Shown here: positions 22,070-41,191 of the stretch, in pieces
Position numbering within the stretch: position 1 is the first letter of the stretch
Layout of the letters: each line of letters opens with the position of its first letter
DNA from: Flavihumibacter fluvii
GTDB taxonomy: Bacteria; Bacteroidota; Bacteroidia; Chitinophagales; Chitinophagaceae
Assembly (NCBI RefSeq): GCF_018595675.2
Contig: NZ_CP092333.1
Coordinates: 2,628,001 to 2,692,000 of the forward strand
Direction of reading: 5' to 3'
Length of the DNA stretch: 64,000 nt
Notes under the pieces: model-generated
Told to the model about the DNA's origin: nothing
The model's input: the letters and a program-made list of their open reading frames with translations, nothing else
Database searches by the model: none
Translations under genes and position numbers: made by a program

Positions 22070-22074
22070 AACTG

Positions 22075-22914: not shown

Positions 22915-22924
22915 CAGGTCCTGG

Positions 22925-23884: not shown

Positions 23885-23991
23885 GGCGGCTGTTTTAAAA
23901 AGTTAGGGATAATAAGAAAAAAGATCATTGGACTGGTTCAGGCGACCCAAACAGTCCTATGATCATATAAAAAGGTTTTAACGGCGGTGAC

Positions 23992-24885
23992 TTATTTCAA
24001 CTGGGCAACCTGGTCATTGTAGAATTTTACAATTTCAATCACATCCGGCAGGTTGTGTTCCCAGTTTGATTCATGTTCAATCGAGAGCATGCCCTTAAAT
24101 TTCTGCCGTTTCAATTCCTGGAATACTTCAGGGAATTTGATTACACCTTTTCCAACAACAGTATCAGCTGCATCAACCTGTCCGAATGTTACTACATCCT
24201 TAAAATGTAATCCGTATACTTTGCCTTCCAGTTTTTTTAAGCAATCGACCGGATCCAGGCCATTCCTTGCCCAATGCCCCACATCCGCCAGCGCCCCAAT
24301 GTTTGGATGTCCGCTGCTGGCTTCCAGCACTGAATCAGGGCTCCAGTAATGACTTGGTTTCGGATGGTCATGTATGGCCAGTTTGATACCGAATGCACCG
24401 CCCAGGCTATCAATATAATTCCACTGGTCTTTGCGAGGTTCGCAGGTGATATAACTCAAGCCAAAATCTTTGGCGAGTTCAAAGGCTTTCAGCCATTCGT
24501 CATTGGTTTCAGGGGCTATAACACCCATCGCTGTAATACTGATCCCTTTTGATGAAAGCAACTGTTTTAGCTGGGCACGGGTTTCAGCAGACATTTTAGC
24601 GCCGAATTCACCCTTCATATTACCACCAAGTTTCTGGCCCCAGAAAGCTTCAATATTCTTTACACCGGCACTATCTACCTTATTAAGTGCGTCAGTAAAG
24701 CTAAATAACCTGAATGTCCACATTTGGACACCAATCTTCCAGTCAGCCGTTATAGCAGCTATATCTTCTGCTACAACGGTATCTTTAGCAGGCTCTGCTG
24801 TCTGGCTTGCAGGCTGTTCATTATTACATTGAGTAAAGGCCAGCGCCAGCAGGCATAAAAATCCGGCGAATGCAATTCGTTTCAT
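23992..24885 (-). CDS. Sugar phosphate isomerase/epimerase-fold lipoprotein
   Basis: A 297-residue TIM barrel of the same superfamily as the next gene, but lipid-anchored: the leader ends LAFTQC, giving a lipobox Cys near residue 20, followed by a Ser/Ala/Glu linker. Barrel landmarks are IGVQMWTFR, KLAIHDHPKPSHYW, ADVGHWARNGLDP, GLHFKDV and LSIEHE, with His/Glu/Asp positions suited to a divalent metal. It is the first gene of the operon running to GH36 and is divergent from the RidA gene, sharing the 137-base region 24886-25022. Two differently exported barrels in tandem suggest successive steps on a keto-sugar. Confidence 0.82.
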   Translation of the reverse strand: MKRIAFAGFLCLLALAFTQCNNEQPASQTAEPAKDTVVAEDIAAITADWKIGVQMWTFRLFSFTDALNKVDSAGVKNIEAFWGQKLGGNMKGEFGAKMSAETRAQLKQLLSSKGISITAMGVIAPETNDEWLKAFELAKDFGLSYITCEPRKDQWNYIDSLGGAFGIKLAIHDHPKPSHYWSPDSVLEASSGHPNIGALADVGHWARNGLDPVDCLKKLEGKVYGLHFKDVVTFGQVDAADTVVGKGVIKFPEVFQELKRQKFKGMLSIEHESNWEHNLPDVIEIVKFYNDQVAQLK

Positions 24886-25022: not shown

Positions 25023-25484
25023 ATGCAAACAAAACGCAGATCCCTCTTAAAAAATCTATTGGCAGTTGTAGCCGGGGTAACCGGAGTAGGAATCAGTACC
25101 AACGCCCTAGGCAAAAATACACCGATGAAAGAATCAGGTAATATAACTTATGACCAGGATGTGCCACTTTTCTCCGGCCATACAAAACTTGGCAACATGG
25201 TGTTTATTGCAGGAAAAGGAGCCCATTTCCAGGGGGATGTGGCCGCTCACACTGACCATGTGCTGAAAGAATTGGAAAAGGAACTGAAACTGGCTGGCTC
25301 ATCCATGGAGAAAGTTCTAAAAGTTACCGTTTACCTGAATGATATAGCTGATTACAAAGCCATGAATGATACCTATAAAGGGCGTTTTGGTAAGAATCCG
25401 CCGGTTAGGTCAACTGTAGCTGTTGCCAAAGGTGGCGTTCCTGGTGATTCACTGGTGGAAATGGACTGTATCGCTTATATCTAA
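25023..25484 (+). CDS. Exported RidA-family enamine/imine deaminase
   Basis: A 153-residue protein. The N-terminus (MQTKRRSLLK, then a hydrophobic stretch to about residue 30) is a twin-arginine-type leader, unusual because RidA is normally cytosolic. The mature part has the RidA landmarks: GNMVFIAGKG, the VTVYLNDIADY helix, R129 in PPVRSTVAV (the carboxylate-binding Arg) and the closing VEMDCIAY. RidA hydrolyses the reactive enamines released by PLP-dependent ammonia-lyases. It is the first gene of a plus-strand operon and lies 37 bases ahead of the first of three exported PLP enzymes, which fits that role exactly. Confidence 0.88.
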   Translation: MQTKRRSLLKNLLAVVAGVTGVGISTNALGKNTPMKESGNITYDQDVPLFSGHTKLGNMVFIAGKGAHFQGDVAAHTDHVLKELEKELKLAGSSMEKVLKVTVYLNDIADYKAMNDTYKGRFGKNPPVRSTVAVAKGGVPGDSLVEMDCIAYI

Positions 25485-25521
25485 AGCAGTTGCATACACC
25501 TGAACAAACACATACCATAAC

Positions 25522-26739
25522 ATGAAACGCAGAGCAATACTAAAGGGCCTTTCCCTGATGCCTTTCGGCACTGGCCTTGCCGCAACAATGGCGCCCCTGG
25601 GTGCCGCTACGGCAGCTCCGGCTTCCAAAGGCCGAAATATTTTCAAAGAACTTGGCATACGTACTTTTATCAATGCGGCTGGTACTTATACTGCGATGAC
25701 CGGATCATTAATGCAGGACGAAGTGGTTGCTGCCATCCAAAATGCTTCAAAGGAATTCTGTTTATTAGATGAACTGCAGGACAAGGTCGGTGAAAAAATC
25801 GCCGCCCTGGTGCATGCCGAAGCCGCAGTTGTAACAGCCGGCTGTTTTTCAGCGATGACGCTCGGACTTGCCGGGGTACTCACCGGAAAGGACCAGCAAA
25901 AAGTAGAACAACTCCCCCACCTTGCGGGAACAACCATGAAGTCTGAGGTCATTATGCAGAAAGCCCATACCATTGGTTATTCCCATGCACTTACCAATAC
26001 TGGTTGCAACATTGTATATGTCGAAACGATTGCAGATGTGGAGAAAGCCATTAACGACAAGACCGCCCTGCTCTGGTTCCTGAATGTTCAATCAGACAGC
26101 GGATCAATAAACCATGAACAATGGGTGGCACTGGGCAGGAAATACAATATTCCAACAATGATCGACATTGCAGCGGATGTTCCGCCGGTTAGTAACCTAT
26201 GGAAATTCCATGACATGGGCTTTGACCTGGTTTGCGTTTCCGGCGGTAAAGCCATGCGGGGTCCGCAAAGCGCCGGCATCCTGATGGGCAAAAAGGACCT
26301 GGTCGCTGCTGCGAGGTTGAGCATGCCACCCAGAGGATCAACCATTGGGCGGGGTATGAAGGTCAATAAAGAAGAGATCATCGGAATGTATGTGGCCCTG
26401 GACAAATTCATCCATACAGACCATGAAAAGCTGTGGAAAGAATGGGAAAGCCGCATTGCAACCATGGAAGCCGCTGTTAAACCCTTAAAGGGTATCGCTA
26501 CAACTATTAAGGTTCCGCCACTTGGGAATGTTACACCTACACTGCATATTACCTGGGATAGTTCAGTGGTAAAACTGACTACTGCATCCTTGCAGGAAAA
26601 TTTACGGAATGGCAATCCTTCCATCGAAGTGATCGGTAGTGGTGATAACCATATTACCATCACTGCCTGGGTGATGCAACCTGGTGAAGAAAAATTAGTG
26701 GCAGCCCGTTTAAAAGAAGAATTTACTAAAGCAGTTTAG
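25522..26739 (+). CDS. Exported SelA-like PLP-dependent enzyme 1 (ammonia-lyase type)
   Basis: A 405-residue fold-type I PLP enzyme related to the EF_0838/DgaE branch of SelA-like proteins. The leader MKRRAILKGL...AAP looks twin-arginine dependent. Catalytic landmarks: NAAGTYTA near 51-58, the TAGCFSA phosphate-binding loop, D215 in MIDIAADV, and the PLP-binding K243 in VSGGKAMRGPQSAG. Known relatives eliminate ammonia from D-glucosaminate-type amino-sugar acids to give a 2-keto-3-deoxy acid. Close paralogue of the enzyme at 34514 (shared RGMKVNKEEIIGMYVA). Gaps: 37 bases after RidA, 65 before the PQQ/cytochrome gene. Substrate is inferred, not shown. Confidence 0.85.
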   Translation: MKRRAILKGLSLMPFGTGLAATMAPLGAATAAPASKGRNIFKELGIRTFINAAGTYTAMTGSLMQDEVVAAIQNASKEFCLLDELQDKVGEKIAALVHAEAAVVTAGCFSAMTLGLAGVLTGKDQQKVEQLPHLAGTTMKSEVIMQKAHTIGYSHALTNTGCNIVYVETIADVEKAINDKTALLWFLNVQSDSGSINHEQWVALGRKYNIPTMIDIAADVPPVSNLWKFHDMGFDLVCVSGGKAMRGPQSAGILMGKKDLVAAARLSMPPRGSTIGRGMKVNKEEIIGMYVALDKFIHTDHEKLWKEWESRIATMEAAVKPLKGIATTIKVPPLGNVTPTLHITWDSSVVKLTTASLQENLRNGNPSIEVIGSGDNHITITAWVMQPGEEKLVAARLKEEFTKAV

Positions 26740-26804
26740 CAGGAATTTTCAAAGCAAACATCTTCCTGCCTATTTGATCATAGAAATAAACTTACTGTCT
26801 ATTT

Positions 26805-28547
26805 ATGCAATCAATTTTTCGGTTAAGGTGCTTATTAGCGTTGCTTGTTATATTCTCATCCTGTACCGGTCGCAAGGGGCTGCCACCCGGCGATCCTGAT
26901 AATGGTGGCCTTTACTTGCCTGGTAATTTTGAAGCAGTTATAGTTGCAGACAGCATCGGCAGTGCACGCCACCTGGCCGTTACCGATAACGGTGATATCT
27001 ATGTGAAATTAAGAGGAACCTTCCCTGAAGGCGGGAATGTAGCATTGCGTGATGAAAACAATGATGGCAAGGCTGATATCATAAAGAAATTTGGCAAATA
27101 TGTAGATGACGAATATTATGGTACGGCCATGCGCATTTACAATGGCTATATCTACTACAGTTCAGCCAGTACAGTGTATCGCACGAAAATAAAACCAGGG
27201 GAACTGATTCCTGAGGATAGCCTTGAAGTAATGCTCACCGACGATTTTCGCCATGACCCGCACGGGTACCAGCATATCGCAAAACCAGTGACATTCGATG
27301 AAAATGGCCATATGTATGTACCCTATGGTTCACCATCGGATGTTTGCCAGGAAATGGACCGGATCCCCGAATCTCCCGGACAAATGCCTTGTCCGGAGTT
27401 GGCAGAACACGGTGGCATATGGCAATTTGATGCCAACAAACCAAACCAGACCATCAAAGACGGTAAACGTTATGCAACAGGCGTTCGGAGTGCGGTTGCC
27501 ATTACCTGGAATCACCAGCAAAACAGCATGTATATCGTGCAACATGGCCGCGATGACCTGCACCGGACATGGCCGGCCAAATATACCCGCTGGCAAAGTG
27601 CATTAATGCCATCTGAAGAATTCCTGAAAATTAAAGAAGGTACTGATGCCGGCTGGCCCTATTATTATTATGACCAGTTCCAGAAAAAGAAATTATTGAA
27701 CCCTGAATATGGTGGCGACGGAAAGCTGGAAGCTGACAGCAGTAAATACCAGTTACCCATGATCGGTTTCCCCGGGCATTGGGCGCCAAATGATTTATTG
27801 TTTTACACCGGTGACCAGTTCCCTGAAAGATACAAGGATGGTGCCTTCATCGCATTTCATGGCTCCACCATCCGCGGCCCCTATTCGCAGAGCGGATACT
27901 TCGTGGCATTCGTTCCATTCAGGGATGGAAATCCTTCAGGCCCCTGGGAAGTATTTGCAGACGGATTCTCCGGTATGGATACCATCGTAAATACCAGTGA
28001 TGCCAAAGGCCGGCCTATGGGCCTTGCAATGGGTCCGGATGGCTCATTGTATGTCAGCGATTCTAAAAGGGGTCGGATCTGGCGCATCATGTACAAAGGG
28101 GATAAACTAAAATTCGGTGCGGAACAACTCGCAGCCATGGAACAACGTAAAACAACCGTTGCACACATCAAAACACCCGATGAACTTGCTGACAACCTCG
28201 AGAAAACCGGCATAGCTGGTGGTGAAAAAATTTATACTACATATTGTATCGCCTGCCACCAAAAAGATGGTAAAGGTGATAATAGCAGGTTTCCGCCACT
28301 TTCCGGATCTGACTGGGTGAATGGAGACACGAAAAGGCTGATCAATGTTATGTTAAACGGCCTCAATGAAACGATCAAAGTAAATGGACAAACATATACG
28401 GGTGTGATGCCAAAGCATCGCTTTTTATCGGATGAAGACATCGCTCAGGTCCTGACCTATATACGCCAGAATATGGACAATACATCAGGGCCGGTATCAG
28501 CGGAGGAAGTCAGTACTGAAAGAAAAAATTTACCTCCCACAAAATAA
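26805..28547 (+). CDS. PQQ-type sugar dehydrogenase-like lipoprotein with C-terminal cytochrome c domain, copy 1
   Basis: A 580-residue lipoprotein (lipobox ...FSSC, Cys20). Residues about 30-440 form a six-bladed beta-propeller of the soluble glucose/sorbosone dehydrogenase type, with LPGNFEAVIV, YATGVRSAVAITW, VQHGRDDL, GWPYYYY, FPGHWAPNDL, FHGS and GPDGSLYVSDS. The C-terminal 100 residues are a class I cytochrome c with CIACH (C481, C484, H485) and a Met ligand candidate in GVMPKH. Such fusions oxidise sugars or alditols at C1 and pass electrons to the respiratory chain outside the cytoplasmic membrane. No PQQ biosynthesis genes are visible in the window. Paralogue of the gene at 32746. 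Confidence 0.85.
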   Translation: MQSIFRLRCLLALLVIFSSCTGRKGLPPGDPDNGGLYLPGNFEAVIVADSIGSARHLAVTDNGDIYVKLRGTFPEGGNVALRDENNDGKADIIKKFGKYVDDEYYGTAMRIYNGYIYYSSASTVYRTKIKPGELIPEDSLEVMLTDDFRHDPHGYQHIAKPVTFDENGHMYVPYGSPSDVCQEMDRIPESPGQMPCPELAEHGGIWQFDANKPNQTIKDGKRYATGVRSAVAITWNHQQNSMYIVQHGRDDLHRTWPAKYTRWQSALMPSEEFLKIKEGTDAGWPYYYYDQFQKKKLLNPEYGGDGKLEADSSKYQLPMIGFPGHWAPNDLLFYTGDQFPERYKDGAFIAFHGSTIRGPYSQSGYFVAFVPFRDGNPSGPWEVFADGFSGMDTIVNTSDAKGRPMGLAMGPDGSLYVSDSKRGRIWRIMYKGDKLKFGAEQLAAMEQRKTTVAHIKTPDELADNLEKTGIAGGEKIYTTYCIACHQKDGKGDNSRFPPLSGSDWVNGDTKRLINVMLNGLNETIKVNGQTYTGVMPKHRFLSDEDIAQVLTYIRQNMDNTSGPVSAEEVSTERKNLPPTK

Positions 28548-28558
28548 AAATTGTTCAA

Positions 28559-30160
28559 ATGAAACGTCGTAATATATTAAAGGGACTGGGATTGCTTCCA
28601 ATGGCTGGTGTTCTGGCCCCCATAAAATCAGCGCTGGGTGCCCCTGCAGCTGATTATGCCGCTGAGCCAAATATTTTTCAATCGATTGGTGTGGAACCGA
28701 TCATTAATTGCCGGGGAACTTTTACTATCATCGGTGGCTCCATTGAACGCCCTGAGGTACGGGCCGCAATGGAGGCTGCTTCAAAGAATTTCATACAATA
28801 TGATGAAATGGCCGATGCCATCCATAAACGCCTGGCAGAAATCACTGGTGCAGAGTGGGCTTTGGTTTCAGCTGGTTGCGCAGCAGGATTAAAACATGTT
28901 ACCGCCGCATGTGTAACTGGTGGAAACCCTGAAAAACTGATCAGGATTCCAGACCTCACAGGCTTTGAAAAGAATGAGGTAATCATCCCATCATCTTCCC
29001 GAAATGTATATGACCATGCCATCCGTAATGTCGGGGTACGCGTGATTACCGTAGATACATTGGCCGAAATGGAAAATGCCATCAATTCACATACGGCCAT
29101 GATCTACCTGATGGCTTTTGATGAGGCACAGACCGGCAACGAATTTACCCTGGCCAATGTATCCAAAATCTCCAGGCCCAAAAATGTCCCCATCCTGATC
29201 GATGCTGCAGCTGAGGTTTTGACCATTCCTAATGTACATTTGCAACGCGGTGCCGATATAGTGGCATATAGCGGGGGGAAAGCTATTTGCGGGCCACAGT
29301 GTGCCGGCCTTGTCATTGGTAAAAAAGATATACTGATGTCCGCCTGGCAGGCAAGTTCACCCCACCATGGCCCTGGCCGCGATAATAAAGTTGGCCGCGA
29401 AGAAATGATGGGTATGCTGGCAGCAGTGGAAGCCTGGACAAAACGCGACCATGCAGCTGAATGGAAAACATGGCTGGGTTACCTCAATACAATTTCTAAA
29501 AAACTTCAGACCATTCCCGGAGTAAGCACATCAGTTTTTGAACCTACAGAATTATCCAACCGCTCACCAGTACTGAACGTTTCCTGGGACCCGGCTAAAT
29601 TTAATATCAATGGTATTGAAATGACGGAAGTCCTGGGCAGGACAAAGCCAAGGATCGCGGTAGGCAGTGATGACAAAGAAGGAAAAGCCACGATAGATAT
29701 AACAACTGGCCAGATGCAACCGGGAAATGACCAGGTGGTTGCCAACAGGATTCATGAAGTATTATTACAAAAACGTCCCCCAAAACCTGCCATGCAAAAT
29801 GCCGGGTTCAACCTGACAGGCCGATGGGACCTGACTGTACAATTCTTTAGCAGCACCAGTAAGCATAGTTTATTTATTGACCAGGAAGGAAACTGGATGC
29901 AGGGCGTTCACCAGGGCGACTTTTCATCCCGTGAATTAAAAGGCAGTGTGGAAGGTGATATCGTAAAAATGAAAAGTATAGACAGGCATACAGCTGATTA
30001 TATCCCCTTTATATTTAGCGGTAAAGCAACAGCAGATACCATGAGCGGGGAGATTCACCTGGGAGAATACCGTACGGCAAAATTTTCAGCCGTAAGGGTT
30101 AATAAAAAACCATCCCGCGAACAGATCATTGTTCCCGGGGGTCCACCATTGGCCACCTAA
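28559..30160 (+). CDS. Exported SelA-like PLP-dependent enzyme 2 with C-terminal beta-domain
   Basis: A 533-residue protein. Residues 1-29 are a twin-arginine-type leader (MKRRNILKGLGLLP); about 36-405 are a SelA-like PLP domain with NCRGTFTIIGGS, VSAGCAAG, D215 in LIDAAAEV and the PLP-binding K241 in YSGGKAICGPQCAG. Unlike its two paralogues it has about 120 more residues, beginning near FNLTGRWDLTVQF, that read as an all-beta lipocalin-like module (SLFIDQEGNWMQG, ELKGSVEGDIVKM, SGEIHLGEY). It is more diverged than copies 1 and 3. It follows the PQQ/cytochrome gene by 11 bases and precedes amidohydrolase 1 by 27. Confidence 0.84.
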   Translation: MKRRNILKGLGLLPMAGVLAPIKSALGAPAADYAAEPNIFQSIGVEPIINCRGTFTIIGGSIERPEVRAAMEAASKNFIQYDEMADAIHKRLAEITGAEWALVSAGCAAGLKHVTAACVTGGNPEKLIRIPDLTGFEKNEVIIPSSSRNVYDHAIRNVGVRVITVDTLAEMENAINSHTAMIYLMAFDEAQTGNEFTLANVSKISRPKNVPILIDAAAEVLTIPNVHLQRGADIVAYSGGKAICGPQCAGLVIGKKDILMSAWQASSPHHGPGRDNKVGREEMMGMLAAVEAWTKRDHAAEWKTWLGYLNTISKKLQTIPGVSTSVFEPTELSNRSPVLNVSWDPAKFNINGIEMTEVLGRTKPRIAVGSDDKEGKATIDITTGQMQPGNDQVVANRIHEVLLQKRPPKPAMQNAGFNLTGRWDLTVQFFSSTSKHSLFIDQEGNWMQGVHQGDFSSRELKGSVEGDIVKMKSIDRHTADYIPFIFSGKATADTMSGEIHLGEYRTAKFSAVRVNKKPSREQIIVPGGPPLAT

Positions 30161-30187
30161 TGAATGATTGCACAATAAAAAATTAAC

Positions 30188-31459
30188 ATGAATCAGGAAA
30201 AAAAAAATCTGCTCGCTGTCGGATGCATGCTGGTATTCTGCTGTCTCAATGCCGTTCACGCACAGCAATATGACCTGCTATTAAAAGGCGGACATGTAAT
30301 CAGTGCAAAAAATCAACTGGATGGTAAAATGGACGTGGCCATCGCTGGTGGAAAAATCGCCCAGGTGGCCGTTAATATTGATCCCAAAAATGCAAAGCAA
30401 CTAATTGATGTTACCGGGTTATATGTTACACCCGGTATCATCGACATGCATGTACATGTTTTCAATGGTACGAATGTCGATGCCTATATCGCAGATGGAC
30501 TTACCAGTTTACCCCCAGATGGATTTACATTTCGTGCCGGGGTAACCACTGTGGTGGATGCCGGTTCTTCAGGGTGGCGGAATTTCAGGCAATTCAAGAA
30601 ACAAACAATCGATAAAGCTGAAACAAGGGTGCTGGCATTACTGAATATCGCAGGAACGGGTATGCAGGGCCGATTTGAAGAACAGGATACCAGCGATATG
30701 AATCCGCAGCAGGCGGCATATATGATCCAAAAGCTTTATCCTAAAATTATAGTTGGTATTAAATCAGCACACTATTGGGGCGATTTCACACAGGTGGATA
30801 AAGCCGTGGCAGCAGGCAAACTGGCCAACGTACCGGTAATGGTCGATTTTGGGGAACATGAGCCACCTAATTCAATTGAATCTCTCTTCATGCAACACCT
30901 CAGGCCAGGGGATATTTTTACGCATACATTTTCTTATGGCCCAAAGGTGCGGGAAACTATAGTGGATGAAAATGGCAAAGTGAAACCTTTCATTTTTAAA
31001 GCACAACAGCGCGGGATCATATTTGATGTGGGGCATGGCGGTGGGGCATTTTCCTGGCGGCAGGCTGTACCGGCCGCACAACAAGGCTTTTGGCCAAATG
31101 TGATCAGCACCGACCTGCATGCGGAAAGCATGAACGGGGGCATGAAAGACATCAGCAATGTGATGTCGAAGTTTTTAGCACTGGGGCTTCCCTTGCAGGA
31201 AGTAATACTTCGCTCCACCTGGAATCCGGCTCAGGTTATTAAACGTCCGGATTTAGGCAACCTGGATATCGGCGCTGATGCTGATGTAGCAGTATTCAAT
31301 TTAAGAAAAGGGGATTTTGGATTTCTCGATATCCGGAAAACAACACTAAAGGGTACACAAAAACTGGAAGCGGAACTGACCATCCGCGCCGGCAAGATCG
31401 TGTGGGACCTCAATGGTATCAGTGCACCAGGATGGGAAAATGAAATGAAGAAAAAATAA
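30188..31459 (+). CDS. Exported EF_0837-type amidohydrolase/deacetylase 1
   Basis: A 423-residue metallo-dependent hydrolase with a Sec signal ending VHAQ. The TIM barrel shows the amidohydrolase ligand set: H88 and H90 in DMHVHVF, K192 (potentially carboxylated) in VGIKSAH, H246 in IFTHTF, H283 in DVGHGGG and D309 in STDLHAE. The EF_0837/Atu3266 branch deacetylates small acylated acids and, in Enterococcus, lies beside a SelA-like PLP enzyme as here. A deacylase acting before ammonia elimination is inferred. The next amidohydrolase starts with no spacer at the following base. Confidence 0.87.
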   Translation: MNQEKKNLLAVGCMLVFCCLNAVHAQQYDLLLKGGHVISAKNQLDGKMDVAIAGGKIAQVAVNIDPKNAKQLIDVTGLYVTPGIIDMHVHVFNGTNVDAYIADGLTSLPPDGFTFRAGVTTVVDAGSSGWRNFRQFKKQTIDKAETRVLALLNIAGTGMQGRFEEQDTSDMNPQQAAYMIQKLYPKIIVGIKSAHYWGDFTQVDKAVAAGKLANVPVMVDFGEHEPPNSIESLFMQHLRPGDIFTHTFSYGPKVRETIVDENGKVKPFIFKAQQRGIIFDVGHGGGAFSWRQAVPAAQQGFWPNVISTDLHAESMNGGMKDISNVMSKFLALGLPLQEVILRSTWNPAQVIKRPDLGNLDIGADADVAVFNLRKGDFGFLDIRKTTLKGTQKLEAELTIRAGKIVWDLNGISAPGWENEMKKK

Positions 31460-32734
31460 ATGGGAAAACCGTTTACATATTACCATGTGATCTCAAAACA
31501 TATTTGGTTGCCAGGCAGAATTATTTTGTTGTGCATCCTGATTGTACCTGGACTTTTAACGGTGGCCCAACCCTATGACCTGCTGATCAAAAATGCCCAT
31601 ATGATTGATCCGAAAAACCATATTAATGGCAAAATGGATCTTGCAGTTACAAATGGAATAATTGTCAAAGTTTCACCAGTCATTCCCCCATTGCAGGCAA
31701 AAAAGACCATCGATGCCAGTGGACTGTATATGGTACCAGGGTTGATAGACCTGCACACCCATGTATTTGTGGGCAGTAAGCCGGAAAAATTCGCTGATGG
31801 ACAATACAGTGTTTCTCCCGATGATTTTAGCTTTCGCTCCGGTGTAACCACCGTAGTGGATGCCGGCACTTCGGGTTGGCATAATTTCCCACGTTTTAAA
31901 GAGCAGGTGATTGATCATTCAAGCACCCGGATACTGGCATTTTTAAATATTAATGCAAATGGACTAAGCGGAAAACCCGACGAAGAAGACCTTAGCAATA
32001 TGATTATTGATTCAGCTGTCCAGATGCAACAAAAATACCCTGGTATAATCGTCGGCATCAAGATCGGCCATTTTGAAGGTGCCGACTGGACGCCATTTAA
32101 CCGTGCGCTGGATGCTGCCGCAAAAACAAATACCCCGCTCTTTGTTGAATGCCATTTACCAAAATATAGTTTACAGGACCAGTTGAAGAAAATGCGGCCC
32201 GGTGATATCATCACTCATAGTTATGAACAGATCACGGAAAGAATGCCTGTGGTTGATGAAACCGGGAAACTAAGGCCTTTTGTGCTGGAAGCGAAACAAA
32301 ATGGGATATTATTCGATGTAGGTCATGGTGGTGCAGGTTTCTGGTTCAGCCAGGCTATTCCTGCATTTAAACAAGGCCTGGCTCCTAATTCCTTTGGCAG
32401 CGACCTGCACAGGTTTAGTATGAATGCCGGTATGAAAAGCCTTCTGAACATTATGTCCAAATACATGGCGATTGGAATGTCTCTTGAATCTGTGGTTGAA
32501 AGGGCCAGTTGGAATACGGCACAATCTATTCATCGCACGGACCTTGGCAACCTTACCGAAGGCACAGTTGCAGATATCACCTTACTGAGCCTGTTAAACG
32601 GAAATTTCGGATACGTTGATGCAGGCGGATTCAGGATTGAAGGAAAACAAAAACTGGAAGCCGAACTTACCATACGGGCAGGAAAAATCGTCTGGGATCT
32701 AAATGGACTGAACGCTAAAAATTATCAGCAATAA
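31460..32734 (+). CDS. Exported EF_0837-type amidohydrolase/deacetylase 2
   Basis: A 424-residue paralogue of its neighbours. The start codon follows directly on the stop of amidohydrolase 1 (TAA-ATG), so translation is likely coupled. The N-terminal hydrophobic segment (about 20-36, ending TVAQ) with a longer polar n-region acts as signal peptide or anchor. Metal-ligand candidates are complete: H99 and H101 in DLHTHVF, K201 in VGIKIGH, H253 in IITHSY, H289 in DVGHGG and D315 in FGSDLHR. The segment corresponding to the first copy's STD reads GSD. Two consecutive copies suggest two acyl or amide substrates. The exact one is unknown. Confidence 0.86.
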   Translation: MGKPFTYYHVISKHIWLPGRIILLCILIVPGLLTVAQPYDLLIKNAHMIDPKNHINGKMDLAVTNGIIVKVSPVIPPLQAKKTIDASGLYMVPGLIDLHTHVFVGSKPEKFADGQYSVSPDDFSFRSGVTTVVDAGTSGWHNFPRFKEQVIDHSSTRILAFLNINANGLSGKPDEEDLSNMIIDSAVQMQQKYPGIIVGIKIGHFEGADWTPFNRALDAAAKTNTPLFVECHLPKYSLQDQLKKMRPGDIITHSYEQITERMPVVDETGKLRPFVLEAKQNGILFDVGHGGAGFWFSQAIPAFKQGLAPNSFGSDLHRFSMNAGMKSLLNIMSKYMAIGMSLESVVERASWNTAQSIHRTDLGNLTEGTVADITLLSLLNGNFGYVDAGGFRIEGKQKLEAELTIRAGKIVWDLNGLNAKNYQQ

Positions 32735-32745
32735 TAATGCAGTAA

Positions 32746-34509: not shown

Positions 34510-34513
34510 ACAT

Positions 34514-35737
34514 ATGAAGCGTAGGGATATCTTGAAATCGATTTCAATATTGCCGCTGGCTGGTGGACTCGCAGGAAGCCTGGCGCCAGTATCCGGTATA
34601 TTTGCTGCTCCAAAGGCAAAAAGAAATGTCTTTGAAGAATTGGGCCTGCGCACTTTCATTAATGCTGCTGGCAATTATACAGCTATGTCGGCCTCACTTA
34701 TGCCACCTGAAGTAATGGAAGCGATCAACCAAAGCGCTACAGAATATGTGATGCTCGATGAAGTACAGGATAAAGTTGGTGAAAAAATTGCTGCCATGTG
34801 CCATGCCGAGGCCGCGATGGTAACTGCAGGCTGCTGGTCGGCCATTGTATTAGGAACTGCCGGCGTGCTAACCGGAAAAGATAACGAAAAAATAAAAAGA
34901 CTCCCCAATCTTACCGGATCGGGAATGAAATCGGAAGTGATCATCCAGAAAGCGCATTTGGTGGGCTATGAACATTCTGTTACAAATACCGGGGCAAAAA
35001 TAATAGTTGTGGAAACTGCAGATGATGCAGAAAAAGCCATCAACGACAAAACAGCCATGATGTGGTTCCTGAACAGGGAGGCTCCTTTGGGAAAAATTTC
35101 ACATGAAGCCTGGTTGCAAATTGCGAAGAAGCATAATATTCCAACAATGATCGATATGGCTGCTGATGTTCCGCCTGTTGAAAATTTGTGGAAGTACAAT
35201 GACATGGGGTTTGACCTTGTTGCAATTTCAGGTGGAAAAGCCATGTGTGGTCCGCAGAGTACAGGAATTCTGATGGGCAAAAAAGAGCTTATCGCAGCAG
35301 CCAGGCTGAATGGTCCACCTAATGGTGGAAATATAGGCCGGGGTATGAAAGTAAACAAGGAAGAGATCATTGGAATGTATGTTGCAATGGATGCCTACAT
35401 TAAAAGGGATCACAGGAAAGAATGGAAAACCTGGGAAGATAAAATTGCCTTCATCGATGCCGCTATCAAAAAAATACCTGGCGTAACCACTGAAGTATTC
35501 ATCCCCCCCGTTGCCAACCATAATCCATCATTGATGATCGCCTGGGATCCGCAAAAAATTAAGTTAACCAAAGAGACCATGGGGGAAAAACTACGCCGGG
35601 GCAGCCCTTCCATCGAAACCATTTCCTGGGAAAAGGACAATAGCATCAGGATAACGGTATTTATGTTGAAGCCCGGCCAGGAAAAAATGGTAGCCAACAG
35701 GATTAAGGAAGAACTTTTAAACAATTCAGCATCATGA
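34514..35737 (+). CDS. Exported SelA-like PLP-dependent enzyme 3 (ammonia-lyase type)
   Basis: A 407-residue close paralogue of the enzyme at 25522, again with a twin-arginine-type leader (MKRRDILKSISILP...AAP). The PLP-binding lysine is K242 in ISGGKAMCGPQSTG, the ring-nitrogen aspartate is D213 in MIDMAADV, and the GRGMKVNKEEIIGMYVA segment is shared with copy 1. It lacks the extra C-terminal domain of copy 2. The stop overlaps the start of amidohydrolase 3 by 4 bases (ATGA), a strong sign of coupled translation and matched stoichiometry of a lyase-deacylase pair. Confidence 0.85.
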   Translation: MKRRDILKSISILPLAGGLAGSLAPVSGIFAAPKAKRNVFEELGLRTFINAAGNYTAMSASLMPPEVMEAINQSATEYVMLDEVQDKVGEKIAAMCHAEAAMVTAGCWSAIVLGTAGVLTGKDNEKIKRLPNLTGSGMKSEVIIQKAHLVGYEHSVTNTGAKIIVVETADDAEKAINDKTAMMWFLNREAPLGKISHEAWLQIAKKHNIPTMIDMAADVPPVENLWKYNDMGFDLVAISGGKAMCGPQSTGILMGKKELIAAARLNGPPNGGNIGRGMKVNKEEIIGMYVAMDAYIKRDHRKEWKTWEDKIAFIDAAIKKIPGVTTEVFIPPVANHNPSLMIAWDPQKIKLTKETMGEKLRRGSPSIETISWEKDNSIRITVFMLKPGQEKMVANRIKEELLNNSAS

Positions 35738-36996
35738 AAAAAATAAGTCTTTTACTGGTAGTAATACTGATTAGTTGTTTTGGCGCTGGTGCTATAGCCC
35801 AGTCTTATGATATAGTTATCAAAGGTGGCCATGTGATCGATCCCAAAAACAATATCGATGCAGTTATGGATGTGGCTATAAAGGATGGGAAAATTGCGCA
35901 GGTTGCAGCTAACATAGATGGAAAGCAGGCTGCACAAACAGTGGATGCGAAAGGGTTGTATGTTACACCCGGACTCATCGATATTCATGCCCATGTATTT
36001 TTTGGAACTGAACCCGATCACTACCTGAGCAATGGCATGGTGGCTGTTGTGCCGGATGGCTTTACCTTCAGGGTAGGTGTTACCACTGTAGTTGATTGTG
36101 GTGGTGCAGGATGGAAATCATTCGATACGTTCAAGAAAAACATTATTGACAATTCGCAAACCAGGGTCCTGGCCTTCCTTAATATAGTCGGGGAAGGCAT
36201 GCGCGGTGGCGCCTATGAACAGGATATCAACGATATGGACCCAAAGCTGACTGCTATTGTCGCTAAACAAAACAAGGACATAGTGGTTGGTTTTAAAGTG
36301 GCCCACTTCTCAGGACCGGAATGGGCGCCTGTAGACCGGGCGGTAGAGGCTGGCAAGCTGGCCAATATGCCCGTAATCATTGATTTTGGTGGCAACAATC
36401 CTCCTCTTTCCATTGAGGAATTATTCATGAAACACCTGCGTCCCGGTGATATTTATACCCACACCTATACCCTGCTGGAAGGTAATGTACGCGAAACAGT
36501 GGTGGATGAAGCAACAAAAAAAGTAAAGCCATTTATTTGGGATGCTAAAAAGCGGGGGATCATATTTGATGTAGGCTATGGTGGTGCCAGTTTCAATTTT
36601 AGCCAGGCGATCCCGGCCCTGAAAGCAGGTTTCTTTCCGAATACAATCAGTACCGATTTGCATACGGGCAGCATGAATGCATCCATGAAAGACCAATTGG
36701 GTGTGATGACAAAATTCCTTTACCTGGGTATGCCTTTAACGGAAGTAATCAAGGCCAGTACCTGGAGTCCGGCACAGGTTATACAGCACGAAGAGTTGGG
36801 TAACCTGTCAGTTGGTGGCATTGCAGATCTGGCCATCCTTAATCTTCGGCAAGGTGACTTTGGCTTATACGATAAGACCGGTTACAAAGTGAACAGTAAA
36901 CAGAAATTCGAATGTGAGCTGACTATAAAAGGCGGTAAAATCGTGTACGACCTTAATGGAAAAGCAGATCCCATTTACCCAAAAGCAAAAAAATAA
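35734..36996 (+). CDS. Exported EF_0837-type amidohydrolase 3 with altered metal-site residue
   Basis: A 420-residue paralogue with a Sec signal ending GAIAQ. Ligand candidates H85 and H87 (DIHAHVF), K188 (VGFKVAH), H243 (YTHTY) and D308 (STDLHTG) are conserved. The histidine of the DVGHGG motif kept in copies 1 and 2 is replaced by Tyr282 (DVGYGG), read from TAT in the sequence. If that His ligates metal as in related amidohydrolases, this copy may have a changed or single metal centre. The gene overlaps PLP enzyme 3 by 4 bases. Confidence 0.86.
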   Translation: MKKISLLLVVILISCFGAGAIAQSYDIVIKGGHVIDPKNNIDAVMDVAIKDGKIAQVAANIDGKQAAQTVDAKGLYVTPGLIDIHAHVFFGTEPDHYLSNGMVAVVPDGFTFRVGVTTVVDCGGAGWKSFDTFKKNIIDNSQTRVLAFLNIVGEGMRGGAYEQDINDMDPKLTAIVAKQNKDIVVGFKVAHFSGPEWAPVDRAVEAGKLANMPVIIDFGGNNPPLSIEELFMKHLRPGDIYTHTYTLLEGNVRETVVDEATKKVKPFIWDAKKRGIIFDVGYGGASFNFSQAIPALKAGFFPNTISTDLHTGSMNASMKDQLGVMTKFLYLGMPLTEVIKASTWSPAQVIQHEELGNLSVGGIADLAILNLRQGDFGLYDKTGYKVNSKQKFECELTIKGGKIVYDLNGKADPIYPKAKK

Positions 36997-36997
36997 C

Positions 36998-37912
36998 ATG
37001 CAATTCAAATTAATCAGTGCTGGATTACTATTGGCCATTACCGCTATTGGCTGCAAAAACGCCCAACAAAAAGAAACAATGCAACAGGTATACCAGGCTG
37101 TCGACCTTACAGCAGACAGCAGTTTTACAAAGGGAGCCGAAGGTCCGGCTGTAGACAAAGAGGGTAACATTTATGCCGTAAACTTTAGCAAAGAAGGGAC
37201 TATTGGAATTGTTACACCAGCTGGAAGTGGCCGTGTTTTTGTAGAATTGCCAAATGGAAGTGTTGGCAACGGTATTCGTTTTAACAGCAAAGGTGAAATG
37301 CTGATCGCTGATTACACTAACCACAATATCCTGAAAGTTGAGATGACAGGTGCTAACACCATCTCAGTGTATGCCCACGATTCAACCATGAGCCAGCCAA
37401 ATGATATAGCTATCGACAGTAAAGACCGCCTATTTGCCAGCGACCCCAATTGGAAAGCAGGCACAGGGCGCATCTGGCGCATTGATACCGACGGAAAAGT
37501 CAATTTACTGGAAGATAGTATGGGTACAACAAATGGCATTGAGGTAAGTCCGGACGAAAAAATATTATACGTGAATGAATCCGTTCAGCGCAATGTATGG
37601 GCATACGATTTATCCCCAGGCGGTGAAATCTCTAACAAAAGGCTACTGATCAGCTTTCCTGATTTTGGCATGGATGGTATGCGCTGCGATGTAGCTGGTA
37701 ATTTGTACATTACAAGGCATGGTAAAGGTGTTGTGGCCATGGTTTCACCAGAAGGAAAACTTATTCGGGAAATAACGCTGAAAGGAAAATTACCAAGCAA
37801 CATTGCATTTGGCGGCCCTGAAGGAAAAACAGCCTACGTTACCTTACAGGACCGGGGTAATATGGAGCAATTTTCTGTAGAAACACCTGGCAGGGAATGG
37901 AAAAAGAAATAG
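36998..37912 (+). CDS. SMP-30/gluconolactonase-like beta-propeller lipoprotein
   Basis: A 304-residue lipoprotein. An upstream in-frame start at 36956 lies inside the preceding gene; the ATG at 36998, one base after its stop codon, starts a normal lipoprotein leader (TAIGC). The mature protein is a six-bladed propeller of SMP-30/NHL type: EGPAVDKEGNIYAVNF, GNGIRFNSKGEMLIADY, PNDIAIDSKDRLFASD, NGIEVSPDEKILYVNES and DGMRCDVAGNLYITRHG. The Glu, Asn and Asp expected for a metal-dependent lactonase are present in these strings. A lactonase would open the lactone made by a PQQ sugar dehydrogenase, which fits the operon. Confidence 0.84.
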   Translation: MQFKLISAGLLLAITAIGCKNAQQKETMQQVYQAVDLTADSSFTKGAEGPAVDKEGNIYAVNFSKEGTIGIVTPAGSGRVFVELPNGSVGNGIRFNSKGEMLIADYTNHNILKVEMTGANTISVYAHDSTMSQPNDIAIDSKDRLFASDPNWKAGTGRIWRIDTDGKVNLLEDSMGTTNGIEVSPDEKILYVNESVQRNVWAYDLSPGGEISNKRLLISFPDFGMDGMRCDVAGNLYITRHGKGVVAMVSPEGKLIREITLKGKLPSNIAFGGPEGKTAYVTLQDRGNMEQFSVETPGREWKKK

Positions 37913-37939
37913 CTGATCAACAATTCAAATATTGATTTC

Positions 37940-38863
37940 ATGAGATATACTGTATTGCTTGCCCTTATTTTTCTTTTGGGAACGGGTACCAGGTCTGAAG
38001 CCCAGGTGATGCCAAAAGAGGAGTTGATTTTTTTAACTGGCGAATGGAAGGGCGATCGCTTCCCCGATGGAAGGCCAAAAATTCCAGATGACCTTCTTCA
38101 ACGCGCAAAAAAAATCGGGATAGAAGAAGCCTGGACGGTCTTAAAAAACGAAGGTTATAAAAACCAGTTTGAAGGCAACTGGAAAATGGTGAATGATTCT
38201 GTAAAAGTTATTGGCCGTGTGGTTACTGCACAATATATGCCCAGCAGGCCCGATGTGGAAATGAGGATCAAGGATCGCGGGAAAAAAGATGGCCGGAAAG
38301 GGAATACCAATGCCTGGCCCATTGAAGTATTAACAAAGGGCGATGTTTATGTTGCTGATTGTTTTGGCAAAATCGCGCAGGGTACTTTAATTGGTGACAA
38401 CCTGGGCAATTCCATCTTTGCAAAAACTGGTAATGGGGTGATTTTTAATGGCGCAGCCCGTGACCTTGCCGGACTCGCAGAGATCAAAGGGTTTAATGCC
38501 TTCGTTCGTGACTTCGACCCTTCTTACCTGGAAGATGTGGTATTGATGGGATTAAATACGCCGGTCAGAATCGGGCACGCCATTGTTTTACCGGGCGACC
38601 TGGTGATCTCGGAACGGGAAGGCGTACTTTTCATTCCTGCCCACCTTGCTGAAAAAGTGGTGAGCATTTCTGAATTCATTTCAGTAAAAGATAAGTTTGG
38701 CCATGCAATGCTGAAATCCGGCAAATATTCACCCGGACAAATCGATAGTCAATGGACTGATGACATCAAAACTGCTTTCCTGCAGTGGTTGCAGCAGCAC
38801 CCGGAAGAAACCCAATTAACCAGAGCCCAGCTCGACGAATTCCTGAACAAAAGAACCTGGTAA
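37940..38863 (+). CDS. Exported RraA/HMG-aldolase-fold protein
   Basis: A 307-residue protein with a Sec signal ending SEAQ, about 80 extra residues (including the LTGEWKGDRFPDGRP stretch) and then an RraA-like domain. The signature region reads VADCFGKIAQGTLIGDNLGN...FNGAARDLAGL. The RD pair and the loop GDNLG, which bind the divalent metal and the oxaloacetate/pyruvate part in HMG/CHA aldolases, are kept. The typical RraA tail (LPGDLVISEREGVLFIPA) follows. RraA-like aldolases split 4-hydroxy-2-keto acids to pyruvate. Its place after PLP, amidohydrolase and lactonase genes suggests cleavage of a 2-keto-3-deoxy acid; that is inference. Confidence 0.83.
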   Translation: MRYTVLLALIFLLGTGTRSEAQVMPKEELIFLTGEWKGDRFPDGRPKIPDDLLQRAKKIGIEEAWTVLKNEGYKNQFEGNWKMVNDSVKVIGRVVTAQYMPSRPDVEMRIKDRGKKDGRKGNTNAWPIEVLTKGDVYVADCFGKIAQGTLIGDNLGNSIFAKTGNGVIFNGAARDLAGLAEIKGFNAFVRDFDPSYLEDVVLMGLNTPVRIGHAIVLPGDLVISEREGVLFIPAHLAEKVVSISEFISVKDKFGHAMLKSGKYSPGQIDSQWTDDIKTAFLQWLQQHPEETQLTRAQLDEFLNKRTW

Positions 38864-38866
38864 CCC

Positions 38867-39979
38867 ATGCGATTGCATAAAATATTACTCATCATTGCTG
38901 CTATTTGCGGAATCTCCGGTATCGGGATGCTATTGTCTGGCTCTCCTGAAACTGCCGGTCCGCTTTTGATCCTGGCATTCATAACCATGGCCATTGCGTT
39001 TAGGGGCTATGAGCAACTAAAAGGATTTTCATATACCGTCACAATTTTCGCTGCAGTAACCACCGCACTTTTCTACCCTAAAGCATTTGTTGAAATGAAT
39101 GGCTTTGTTTTTGCCACCCTTATCACACCCCTGATCCAACTGATTATGTTCGGTATGGGAACTTCTATGAGTTTTGATGATTTTGCCGGTGTTGTAAAAA
39201 TGCCAAAAGGTGTGCTGATTGGAGTAGTAAGCCATTTTATCATCATGCCATTACTGGGTTTTACCATTGCGAACGTTAGCGGACTTCCACCCGAGATTGC
39301 TGCCGGTATTATCTTAATCGGTTGCTCACCAAATGGGATGGCTTCAAATGTAATCTCCTACCTGGCTAAAGCAAACCTGGCCTTATCCATCACAATTACT
39401 GCCATCTCTACCATGCTGGCACCATTCATCACCCCATTCCTGATGAATTTACTGGCGGGTGCATTTATCAAAATAAATGTCTGGGACATGATGTTTGATA
39501 TTTTTAAAATGGTCATAATACCAATTGCAGCCGGACTGCTCTTCAACAAATTCCTGAGTGGCAAAGCAAAGTGGCTGGATAAAGCCATGCCTTATGTATC
39601 CATGTTTGGGATTGCATTTATAATTGTAATCATAACAGCTGCGGGAAGGGATAACCTCCTGAGTATTGGCCCTGTTCTATTACTGGCGGTATTGATACAC
39701 AACGTCTCGGGTTATATACTTGGCTACTGGAGTGGACGGTTATTTAAGATGAGTGAACGCGATTGCCGTACCATTGCCATTGAAGTAGGAATGCAAAACG
39801 GCGGACTGGCATCTGGCCTCGCAAAAGGAATGGGGAAAATGGCTACGGTTGGACTGGCGCCTGCAATATTTGGGCCTTTGATGAATGTAACCGGATCCAT
39901 ATTGGCATCTTATTGGCACAGGAAACCACCATTGGATACTCCTTCAACAATACAAGAATCTGAATTGCCTGCTTTATAA
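38867..39979 (+). CDS. BASS-family sodium symporter
   Basis: A 370-residue inner-membrane protein with about ten hydrophobic segments of the bile acid:sodium symporter family. The signature LIMFGMGTSMSFDDF, the GCSPNGMASNVISYLAKANLALSI crossing helix and the EVGMQNGGLASGLA segment mark the family. BASS members carry pyruvate, 2-keto acids, pantoate and bile acids. It starts 3 bases after the RraA-like gene, so import of the keto acid or pyruvate released outside the membrane is a natural reading. Confidence 0.88.
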   Translation: MRLHKILLIIAAICGISGIGMLLSGSPETAGPLLILAFITMAIAFRGYEQLKGFSYTVTIFAAVTTALFYPKAFVEMNGFVFATLITPLIQLIMFGMGTSMSFDDFAGVVKMPKGVLIGVVSHFIIMPLLGFTIANVSGLPPEIAAGIILIGCSPNGMASNVISYLAKANLALSITITAISTMLAPFITPFLMNLLAGAFIKINVWDMMFDIFKMVIIPIAAGLLFNKFLSGKAKWLDKAMPYVSMFGIAFIIVIITAAGRDNLLSIGPVLLLAVLIHNVSGYILGYWSGRLFKMSERDCRTIAIEVGMQNGGLASGLAKGMGKMATVGLAPAIFGPLMNVTGSILASYWHRKPPLDTPSTIQESELPAL

Positions 39980-39989
39980 AAAAATAATT

Positions 39990-40418
39990 ATGAAATCATT
40001 TGTTCCTGTCTTTGCATTTTTGATCCTGATAGTTGGCAACGCAGCTGCGCAGTCAAAAGAAGAATCTGCTGTAATGGCCGCAACTTCAGCTTTAAATAAA
40101 GCGATGGTAGACGGCGATAAAACATCGCTTGAAAGCCTCACTGCGACAGAATTAAGTTACGGCCATTCAAGCGGGAAAGTTGACAATCAAAGCCAGTTTA
40201 TAACAGCCCTGGTGAGCGGTTCAGTTGATTTTACAAGCATTGATATTACCAACCAAACCATCCAGGTTTCCGGCAAAAATGCTATCGTGAGAAATATGTT
40301 TTCCGGAAAGTTGACCAGTGACGGGAAACCCGTCGAACTTAAAATTGGCATCCTCATGGTTTGGAAAAAATATAAAGGCAACTGGAAATTATTAGCCAGG
40401 CAAGGATATAAATTATGA
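39990..40418 (+). CDS. Exported SnoaL-like / DUF4440 protein
   Basis: A 142-residue secreted protein with a signal ending NAAAQ and a single NTF2-like cone domain (SALNKAMVDGDKTSLESL, ELSYGHSSGKVDNQ, VRNMFSGKL, KKYKGNWKLLARQ). DUF4440 members are common in Bacteroidota sugar-use operons; a catalytic role is not proven. Its stop overlaps the next gene start by 4 bases (ATGA). Confidence 0.82.
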   Translation: MKSFVPVFAFLILIVGNAAAQSKEESAVMAATSALNKAMVDGDKTSLESLTATELSYGHSSGKVDNQSQFITALVSGSVDFTSIDITNQTIQVSGKNAIVRNMFSGKLTSDGKPVELKIGILMVWKKYKGNWKLLARQGYKL

Positions 40419-41191
40419 CCAGGAAAAATATTTACACGCTGGCAATACTGCTGCTGTCACATTATTACCAGGCACTATCACAATCCGGCACGCCCCTGCC
40501 ATCCGGCCAAATATCCGTAAGAAAAACAACTGATTTTGCTATCAGTGGTAAGGGGAATGCTATCAATTGGTCCGGCGCAGAGTGGATAAGGATTGAACAA
40601 CGGGATAGCAAGACCTTAAGGGAAAACCAATGGAATATCCCTAAGGATCGTGATAATTCCAGGGACCTCCAATACAATACCCGTTTTAAAATCATGTATT
40701 CCGAAAAGGGTATCTATTGTTTATACAGTTGTGAAGACAGTTCCATTACTGCGACTATAACCGAAGATTTTTCGCATATCTATGATGAAGATGTGGTGGA
40801 AGCATTTTTCTGGACAGATAGTGCTATGCCGTTGTATTTTGAGTATGAACTATCTCCCTTAAATGTTGAACTGCCTATACTGATAGTGAGTAACAAAGGT
40901 AAAATCATGGGCTGGAAACCCTGGTTTTATGAAGGTGAAAGGAAAACGATCCATGCCATCCATATTGATGAAAACAGGGTTGCCGGAAAAAGGTTTACCT
41001 GGACCGCCGAATTTTTCATACCCTTTTCCCTGCTAAATCCACTTGGAAATGTACCGCCCGCCAAAGGCACAAAATGGCGTGCTAACTTTTACCGGATAGA
41101 CTATGACCAGAAACCAGTGTATTCCAGCTGGCAACTCACCCGGCAAAGCTACCATGATATAGAAAAATTCGGAACCCTGGTATTTGAGTGA
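40415..41191 (+). CDS. Exported CBM9-like carbohydrate-binding protein
   Basis: A 258-residue secreted protein, signal peptide about 1-22, with one carbohydrate-binding family 9-like domain. Family-like strings are ISGKGNAINWSGAEW, RFKIMYSEKGIYCLYSCEDSSITATI, VEAFFWTD, YFEYELSPLNVEL and FTWTAEFFIPF. There is no catalytic domain, and the chain reads as a single sugar-binding module. It is the last gene of the plus-strand operon, coupled by a 4-base overlap; its stop is 7 bases from the stop of the convergent gene at 41199. Confidence 0.8.
   Translation: MTRKNIYTLAILLLSHYYQALSQSGTPLPSGQISVRKTTDFAISGKGNAINWSGAEWIRIEQRDSKTLRENQWNIPKDRDNSRDLQYNTRFKIMYSEKGIYCLYSCEDSSITATITEDFSHIYDEDVVEAFFWTDSAMPLYFEYELSPLNVELPILIVSNKGKIMGWKPWFYEGERKTIHAIHIDENRVAGKRFTWTAEFFIPFSLLNPLGNVPPAKGTKWRANFYRIDYDQKPVYSSWQLTRQSYHDIEKFGTLVFE

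Follow-up and report, generated by a model that had tools for sequence, protein, structure and literature searches.

In the oxidative chitin pathway encoded by the ong cluster, the 2-acetamido aldonic acid GlcNAc1A is described as being deacetylated and deaminated to 2-keto-3-deoxygluconate (KDG) without prior phosphorylation, a route that needs the RidA-family protein OngD, reported as essential but with its role left open (PMC9537276). Clusters of the type GDH-DGA-GAD-RutC lie beside chitinases in Natrarchaeobius and combine a glucose dehydrogenase, a DgaE-like lyase and the Rid-type protein RutC (PMC12343721), while the substrate of the lyase DGL gets phosphorylated during uptake by the phosphotransferase system. 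Here we analyzed a 14-gene operon within a 64,000-nucleotide stretch of the Flavihumibacter fluvii genome (hereafter the window; G000:C1:2628001-2692000, part of a single-contig 5.0 Mb genome). With the ong pathway it would have in common the deacetylation and deamination ahead of phosphorylation as well as the RidA-family protein; the ong enzymes differ in being predicted as cytoplasmic, in belonging to other families and in handing KDG to KdgK for phosphorylation, and they are reported from Gammaproteobacteria and one Betaproteobacterium (PMC9537276). The Natrarchaeobius clusters share with the window the dehydrogenase, the DgaE-like lyase and the Rid-type protein, but are haloarchaeal, are predicted by their authors to be phosphorylative, and are not described as exported in the available portions of that report (PMC12343721). 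Judged by its genes, the window system follows the same logic as these pathways and combines it with export-type enzymes of other families.

We slightly favour the reading that the operon serves to break down N-acyl amino sugars (hexosamines) oxidatively and without phosphorylation outside the cytoplasm, yielding 2-keto-3-deoxy acids. GSDH-cytochrome c fusions would carry out the oxidation at C1 and feed the electrons into the respiratory chain, the SMP-30 protein would open the lactone to an N-acyl aldonic acid, and the cog3964-type amidohydrolases would take off the acyl group. Pyridoxal 5'-phosphate (PLP) enzymes, loaded with their cofactor before export by the twin-arginine translocation (Tat) system, would then eliminate the C3 hydroxyl from the resulting 2-amino acid and, having no DGL proton donor, would release the product as an enamine. 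A Tat-exported RidA would convert this enamine/imine to the 2-keto-3-deoxy acid and ammonia, and the BASS carrier would import the keto acid, unless an RraA aldolase first split it to pyruvate and an aldehyde. The features on which this reading is based lie in the sequences (gene content, conservation, the split between Tat- and Sec-type N-termini, catalytic residues, and the loss of a phosphate site and a His pair); from them we infer the substrate, the step order and every activity, and the full step order is put forward as a hypothesis. A bolder version is possible but more tentative: a complete extracytoplasmic amino-sugar route in which eliminases without a proton donor pass free enamine to RidA, enamine and ammonia are kept from cytoplasmic PLP enzymes, and only the 2-keto-3-deoxy acid or pyruvate is imported.

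Relatives were collected by searching with the third PLP enzyme (g8) as a single-protein query, a search that more distant relatives would escape and that returned 56 loci. By record titles these are Bacteroidota, with the sole exception of a Fodinibius locus (L038), a genus we take to belong to Balneolota. The closest named relative of the query is from Flavihumibacter profundi (88% identity, L004), where all 14 genes occur in the same order; L005 and L007 contain nearly all of them, and most of the 56 loci some portion of the set. A cog3964-type amidohydrolase is found in 45 loci (33 of the 37 that span at least 21 kb), a GSDH-cytochrome c in 32, RidA in 26, SMP-30 in 21, BASS in 20 and RraA in nine. 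A second Rid family (example PF14588/PF01042) occurs in 26 loci, with a Sec-type start by inspection in 24 of its 26 proteins, and one or the other Rid family is present in 42 loci (31 of the 37 of at least 21 kb), or 41 when export-type starts, again by inspection, are counted alone; two further PF01042 proteins from a later tally of operon open reading frames (ORFs) lie outside this count. Amidohydrolase genes stand directly downstream of 39 of the 84 PLP genes (40 pairs in the later tally), and by nearest window type these pairs are 34 g8-g9, two g2-g9, three g4-g5 and one g4-g6. These downstream pairs hint at fixed partners among the PLP and amidohydrolase types, but in L041 and L045 g8-type genes are preceded by g5-type ones, which breaks such a rule.

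At an E-value of 1e-40 the PLP enzyme was detected in 8 of 395 sampled genomes of the phylum (6 of 170 genera) and in 17 of 195 genomes of the family (14 of 101 genera), the own genome being included in both, and the enzyme is a scattered, accessory trait. The family search added 22 further loci, partly from the same species and several from one genome, and in 20 of them an amidohydrolase, Rid, GSDH or SGL gene lies within about 1.5 kb (the misses are L105 and L108). One copy of the PLP enzyme (L121, G465:C36:111427-112626) carries a single in-frame TGA and may be a pseudogene or an assembly error.

PLP enzymes and RidA are usually intracellular. Export signals of the window proteins were assessed by reading the N-termini by inspection and comparing them with relatives. 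Of the 84 PLP enzymes, 81 carry twin arginines (RR) among their first 18 residues, the misses (L005, L007, L058) being frames for which the script found no start; RR also stands at the N-terminus of all 27 RidA proteins (17 under a stricter RR-x-hydrophobic pattern), as against 38 of 489 other ORFs from the loci, whose starts are approximate. RR is seen in one of 69 amidohydrolases, all of which have a strongly hydrophobic stretch; the same hydrophobicity threshold is passed by 53 of the 84 PLP enzymes, as expected of the weaker Tat signals. RR N-termini are absent from the GSDH (0/33), SMP-30 (0/20), RraA (0/9) and BASS (0/22) proteins, and lipobox-like sites occur in 14 of 33 GSDH and 14 of 20 SMP-30 proteins. 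The window PLP enzymes have about 34 residues ahead of the point where DGL starts, and TatC is present in the genome. Tat-type starts thus appear on RidA and on those proteins whose cofactor has to come from the cytoplasm, and the metal, haem and beta-propeller proteins do without them. The predicted export of the cluster enzymes is well supported by these N-termini, from which we infer a localisation outside the cytoplasm; the earlier claim of an export signal on every enzyme holds with the correction that signals of RidA and the PLP enzymes are Tat-type and those of the others Sec- or lipoprotein-type. A precedent is provided by PvdN and PtaA of pseudomonads, PLP enzymes described as exported by Tat in folded form with bound cofactor and active in the periplasm, PvdN having to bind PLP before export (PMC6206403). 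Their job differs, being the tailoring of pyoverdine side chains and not catabolism, and a RidA partner is not mentioned in the available part of that source (PMC6206403).

Family assignments were made with Pfam/NCBIfam profile searches, and for the PLP enzymes they agree with the SelA/DgaE-like label given initially at the level of the family, although the TIGR01437 cut-off is missed (148-182 of 385 bits), as is that of a second profile (135-151 of 600 bits). The best match in the Protein Data Bank (PDB) for the AlphaFold2 (AF2) model of g8 is, by E-value, DGL 7LC0 (8.4e-31, target TM-score 0.86), followed by Cap15 (8T7J) and then SelA. We aligned 83 PLP enzymes, i.e., the three of the window and 80 relatives (4 of the 84 were dropped by a length cut), and took the roles of DGL residues from the published structure, whose Lys217 corresponds to Lys213 of the chain (PMC9529869). 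The PLP-binding Lys213, Asp189 and Arg242 are kept in 83 of 83 sequences, and the position of the carboxylate-binding Arg226 holds Arg or Lys in 77. The phosphate-binding Arg301, Arg332 and Arg346 are kept in three, six and none, respectively; His162 and His163 are each found in 0/83, and any His in the aligned loop (160-167) in five. The loss of the DGL phosphate site suggests a non-phosphorylated substrate, and a non-phosphorylated, amino-acid-type one is well supported by the alignment. Cap15 retains Arg at the three phosphate positions, again by sequence alignment, which sets the exported enzymes apart from Cap15 as well as from DGL, the two solved relatives. In summary, fold, PLP Lys, Asp and the predicted type of reaction on a hexosaminate are common to DGL and the window enzymes, which differ from it in their export-type N-termini, in lacking the phosphate Arg cluster and His162/163, and in having RidA alongside. 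A literal DgaE acting on a phosphorylated substrate is ruled out by the losses of the Arg cluster and the His pair, and a real SelA (selenium transferase) by the better matches to DGL and Cap15 in both sequence and fold.

The missing His pair has a biochemical counterpart, since the H163A variant of DGL is described as still active, with a species absorbing at 293 nm that builds up and is read as released aminoacrylate/free enamine, and RidA is named by the same authors as the kind of enzyme that breaks down such enamines (PMC9529869). Had protonation been outsourced, the His pair should be missing and RidA should be exported alongside, which fits what is seen here; alternatively, another residue could act as proton donor. 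Among the RidA relatives an Arg motif is present in 26 of 27 and a Glu motif in 24 of 27, both visible in g1 and both taken by us to be active-site motifs, and g1 reaches 69 of 106 bits against TIGR00004, missing its cut-off.

The amidohydrolases had initially been labelled EF_0837-type deacylases, which stands at family level (the NF006689 cut-off is exceeded by all three), whereas the TIGR03583 cut-off is missed (215-240 of 432 bits). The AF2 model of g9 matches the PDB entries 8JE0, 2ICS, 8WZY and 2OGJ, and 72 aligned amidohydrolases share with these cog3964/EF_0837 proteins the fold, HxH (72), Lys188 (71), His243 (72) and Asp308 (72), presumably metal ligands together with a second His. 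They differ in their export-type N-termini and, from 2ICS, 2OGJ and 8WZY, at that second (beta-5) His, a change taken up below. The D-X20-R-D motif, which we take to be that of RraA-type class II pyruvate aldolases (HMG/CHA), is present in g11 and in six of nine RraA relatives. Aldol cleavage by RraA as a fixed step, as first proposed, had to be dropped, because just 9 of the 56 loci carry the gene, which makes it optional.

As for the substrate, an aldose dehydrogenase, a lactonase, a relative of a hexosaminate lyase and a keto-acid carrier together point to N-acyl hexosamines, and an amino sugar is on balance the probable substrate. The several PLP and amidohydrolase paralogues suggest several stereoisomers or acyl groups, and parallel substrates are likely given three of each in the window. 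Gene neighbourhoods that bear directly on the substrate are sparse. In one locus (L028) the genes run PLP enzyme, amidohydrolase, DGOK, KDPG aldolase, MFS transporter and PLP enzyme, with DGOK and KDPG aldolase over their Pfam cut-offs and the MFS protein below that of the D-galactonate transporter profile TIGR00893 (239 of 395 bits). This run fits a predicted conversion of galactosaminate to 2-keto-3-deoxygalactonate, where the keto-deoxy acid would apparently be imported and then phosphorylated. Homologues of DGOK, the aldolase and the MFS gene lie about 10-14 kb from a PLP gene of G249, beyond its SusC/SusD genes, and in the own genome DGOK and KDPG aldolase are located about 1.1 Mb from the cluster, so that the host could use an imported keto-deoxy acid. 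As further neighbours, L034 and L039 carry a PIG-L gene (GlcNAc-PI de-N-acetylase family), L040 a lactonase (PF10282) and L022 a sulfatase (SGSH_C, with one more ORF by tally); a NagB-like gene is present in L050 and L051, which are two bins of one species. As separate observations, the own-genome region L096 (~1580573-1584541) holds DGOK, MFS, a gene that looks by eye like a dehydratase, and KDPG aldolase, a De Ley-Doudoroff-like set; a 339 aa protein of L043 without Pfam match resembles by eye a 343 aa protein next to the DGOK genes of G249 (L095); and the PIG-L of L108 is identical to that of L039.

Several findings weigh against an amino-sugar pathway as outlined. DGOK is found in a single one of the 56 loci and lies close to the cluster in one of eight genomes that carry it; counted over whole genomes, it occurs in four of eight that have the cluster and in 4 of 14 that lack it, numbers too small to show a link, and KDPG aldolase in 8/8 and 12/14, respectively. 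The operons hold 179 ORFs that belong to none of the window families, and 109 of them had no reference match; among the 58 of these that were scanned (chosen after setting aside near-duplicates and regulators) and the 25 of 74 families listed, no neighbour was a hexosaminidase or a chitinase. The beta-5 His of 2OGJ, 2ICS and 8WZY, which we presume to bind metal, is Asp (64) or Glu (8) in all 72 amidohydrolases, g5, g6 and g9 included (8JE0 is out of register at this position); the exported enzymes are probably still amide hydrolases, though ones whose metal site has changed. The RraA motif is absent from three of nine relatives, and the target TM-scores of Cap15 8T7J (0.88-0.89) are slightly above that of DGL, with a lower root-mean-square deviation. 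Finally, five loci (L009, L013, L029, L035, L046) carry a gamma-glutamyltransferase, an M81 (MlrC-like) protein and a Tat-type protein of about 456 aa with no Pfam/NCBIfam match (families tested on L035), and one locus (read as L049) an M19 dipeptidase, all of which suggest peptide or amino-acid substrates at those loci.

These last neighbours speak for the strongest alternative, which we regard as unlikely but worth serious attention, namely that the exported enzymes catabolise N-acyl (D-)amino acids or peptide-derived beta-hydroxy amino acids and not sugar acids: the amidohydrolases would deacylate, the PLP enzymes remove both water and ammonia, RidA clear the aminoacrylate and BASS import the keto acid. 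The cog3964 relative 2OGJ, which reportedly hydrolyses acetyl-(R)-mandelate and N-acetyl-D-amino acid amides, also counts in its favour, but it leaves the GSDH-cytochrome c and SMP-30 genes unexplained, as well as the DGOK, KDPG aldolase, PIG-L and NagB-like neighbours. That the operon merely brings together exported enzymes which scavenge mixed amino compounds and have location and regulation in common, with no single linear pathway, appears improbable; locus composition does vary strongly, with RraA, BASS and SGL each in under half of the loci, and the three PLP and three amidohydrolase paralogues would suit such a collection, yet gene order is kept in L004 and largely in L005 and L007, and amidohydrolases recur directly downstream of PLP genes. 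More improbable still are O2-dependent oxidases or decarboxylases like Cap15, whose substrate is a beta-hydroxy-alpha-amino acid (PMC7497351, PMC6384614), or like the Tat-exported periplasmic PvdN (PMC6206403), modifying an amino compound without ammonia elimination, because despite the fold similarity to Cap15 the Rid partners in most loci suit an enamine-releasing eliminase and the exported enzymes are without the Arg residues that Cap15 has at the phosphate positions. A chance cluster or false ORFs are ruled out by the ORF check, the domain matches and the conserved neighbourhoods.

The favoured amino-sugar reading corresponds to the extracytoplasmic, non-phosphorylative pathway of the initial annotation, which gained support from export-type N-termini, the grouping of deacylases with PLP enzymes, the RidA partner, the lost DGL phosphate site and amino-sugar-type neighbours in a few relatives. 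The novelty that it saw in a non-phosphorylative version has to be corrected, as the ong pathway is described as deacetylating and deaminating GlcNAc1A before any phosphorylation, though in the cytoplasm and with other enzyme families (PMC9537276); among the hits listed in searches of open-licence PMC papers, none describes an exported pathway for amino-sugar acids. If the proposal is true, a stretch of amino-sugar catabolism would run in the cell envelope of some Bacteroidota, exported PLP lyases would form an additional family, and RidA would have a role of its own outside the cytoplasm, serving as the other half of an eliminase. It would also suggest a function for OngD, the essential and unexplained RidA protein of the ong pathway, and would give testable functions to families named after selenium transferase, dihydroorotase-like amidohydrolases and bile acid symporters.

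The layout of the operon is summarized in Table 1. An ORF check of the window confirmed 14 ORFs at 25023-41191, all on the plus strand and tightly packed as first described, with intergenic gaps of at most 65 bp (the widest from 26739 to 26805) and 4-bp overlaps at g8/g9 and g13/g14; the families named at the outset (two GSDH/cytochrome c, SGL, three deacylases, three PLP enzymes, RidA, RraA, BASS) are matched in Pfam/NCBIfam, and DUF4440 (g13) and CBM9_2 (g14) are operon members that had gone unnamed. The SGL gene g10 is listed with an ORF start at 36956, its true start probably being 36998, which gives a lipoprotein-type N-terminus. The block is bordered by a divergent gene (start 24885) on one side and a convergent gene (3' end 41199) on the other. 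Promoter and terminator scans gave counts similar to those of shuffles (35 vs 36.1; 18 vs 19.6).

Table 1. Genes of the operon, with window positions and the profile matches, motifs, model scores (pLDDT, predicted local distance difference test) and N-terminus types recorded for each
Gene	Assignment	Position	Strand	Evidence
g1	RidA-family protein	25023..25484	+	PF01042 E 1.6e-20; Tat-type N-terminus
g2	DgaE/SelA-like PLP enzyme	25522..26739	+	TIGR01437 171 bits (cut-off 385); 7LC0 homologue; Lys kept; Tat-type N-terminus
g3	GSDH-type sugar dehydrogenase-cytochrome c fusion	26805..28547	+	PF07995, PF00034 over cut-off; CIACH at 481; lipoprotein-like N-terminus by inspection
g4	DgaE/SelA-like PLP enzyme, ~130-residue C-terminal extension	28559..30160	+	TIGR01437 148 bits; 7LC0 homologue; Tat-type N-terminus
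g5	cog3964-type amidohydrolase	30188..31459	+	NF006689 450 bits (cut-off 371); Sec-type N-terminus
g6	cog3964-type amidohydrolase	31460..32734	+	NF006689 403 bits (cut-off 371); hydrophobic N-terminus after long N-region
g7	GSDH-type sugar dehydrogenase-cytochrome c fusion	32746..34509	+	PF07995, PF00034; CQSCH at 489; lipoprotein-like N-terminus by inspection
g8	DgaE/SelA-like PLP enzyme	34514..35737	+	AF2 model pLDDT 91.7; top PDB match by E-value 7LC0 DGL; Tat-type N-terminus
g9	cog3964-type amidohydrolase	35734..36996	+	NF006689 456 bits (cut-off 371); AF2 model pLDDT 91.7; Sec-type N-terminus
g10	SMP-30/gluconolactonase-like (SGL) lipoprotein	36998..37912	+	PF08450 E 2.7e-43
g11	RraA-like protein, D-X20-R-D motif	37940..38863	+	PF03737; motif at residue 153; Sec-type N-terminus
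g12	BASS-family (SBF) carrier, PanS-like	38867..39979	+	PF01758 E 6.8e-43; NF047939 247 bits, under cut-off 400
g13	DUF4440 protein	39990..40418	+	PF14534; Sec-type N-terminus
g14	CBM9_2-like protein	40415..41191	+	PF16011; Sec-type N-terminus

A separate conserved unit is seen in three loci (L026, L056, L059), where the gene for a DUF362 protein (Pfam on L026) that has twin arginines at its N-terminus lies next to a g4-type PLP gene and amidohydrolase genes of the g6/g5 type; the g8-type genes are on the other strand. Upstream of the operon, the minus strand of the window (20768-24885) encodes ThuA, two TIM-barrel epimerase-like proteins and a beta-lactamase-family protein, and an RR N-terminus is also found on one of the two divergent TIM-barrel proteins.

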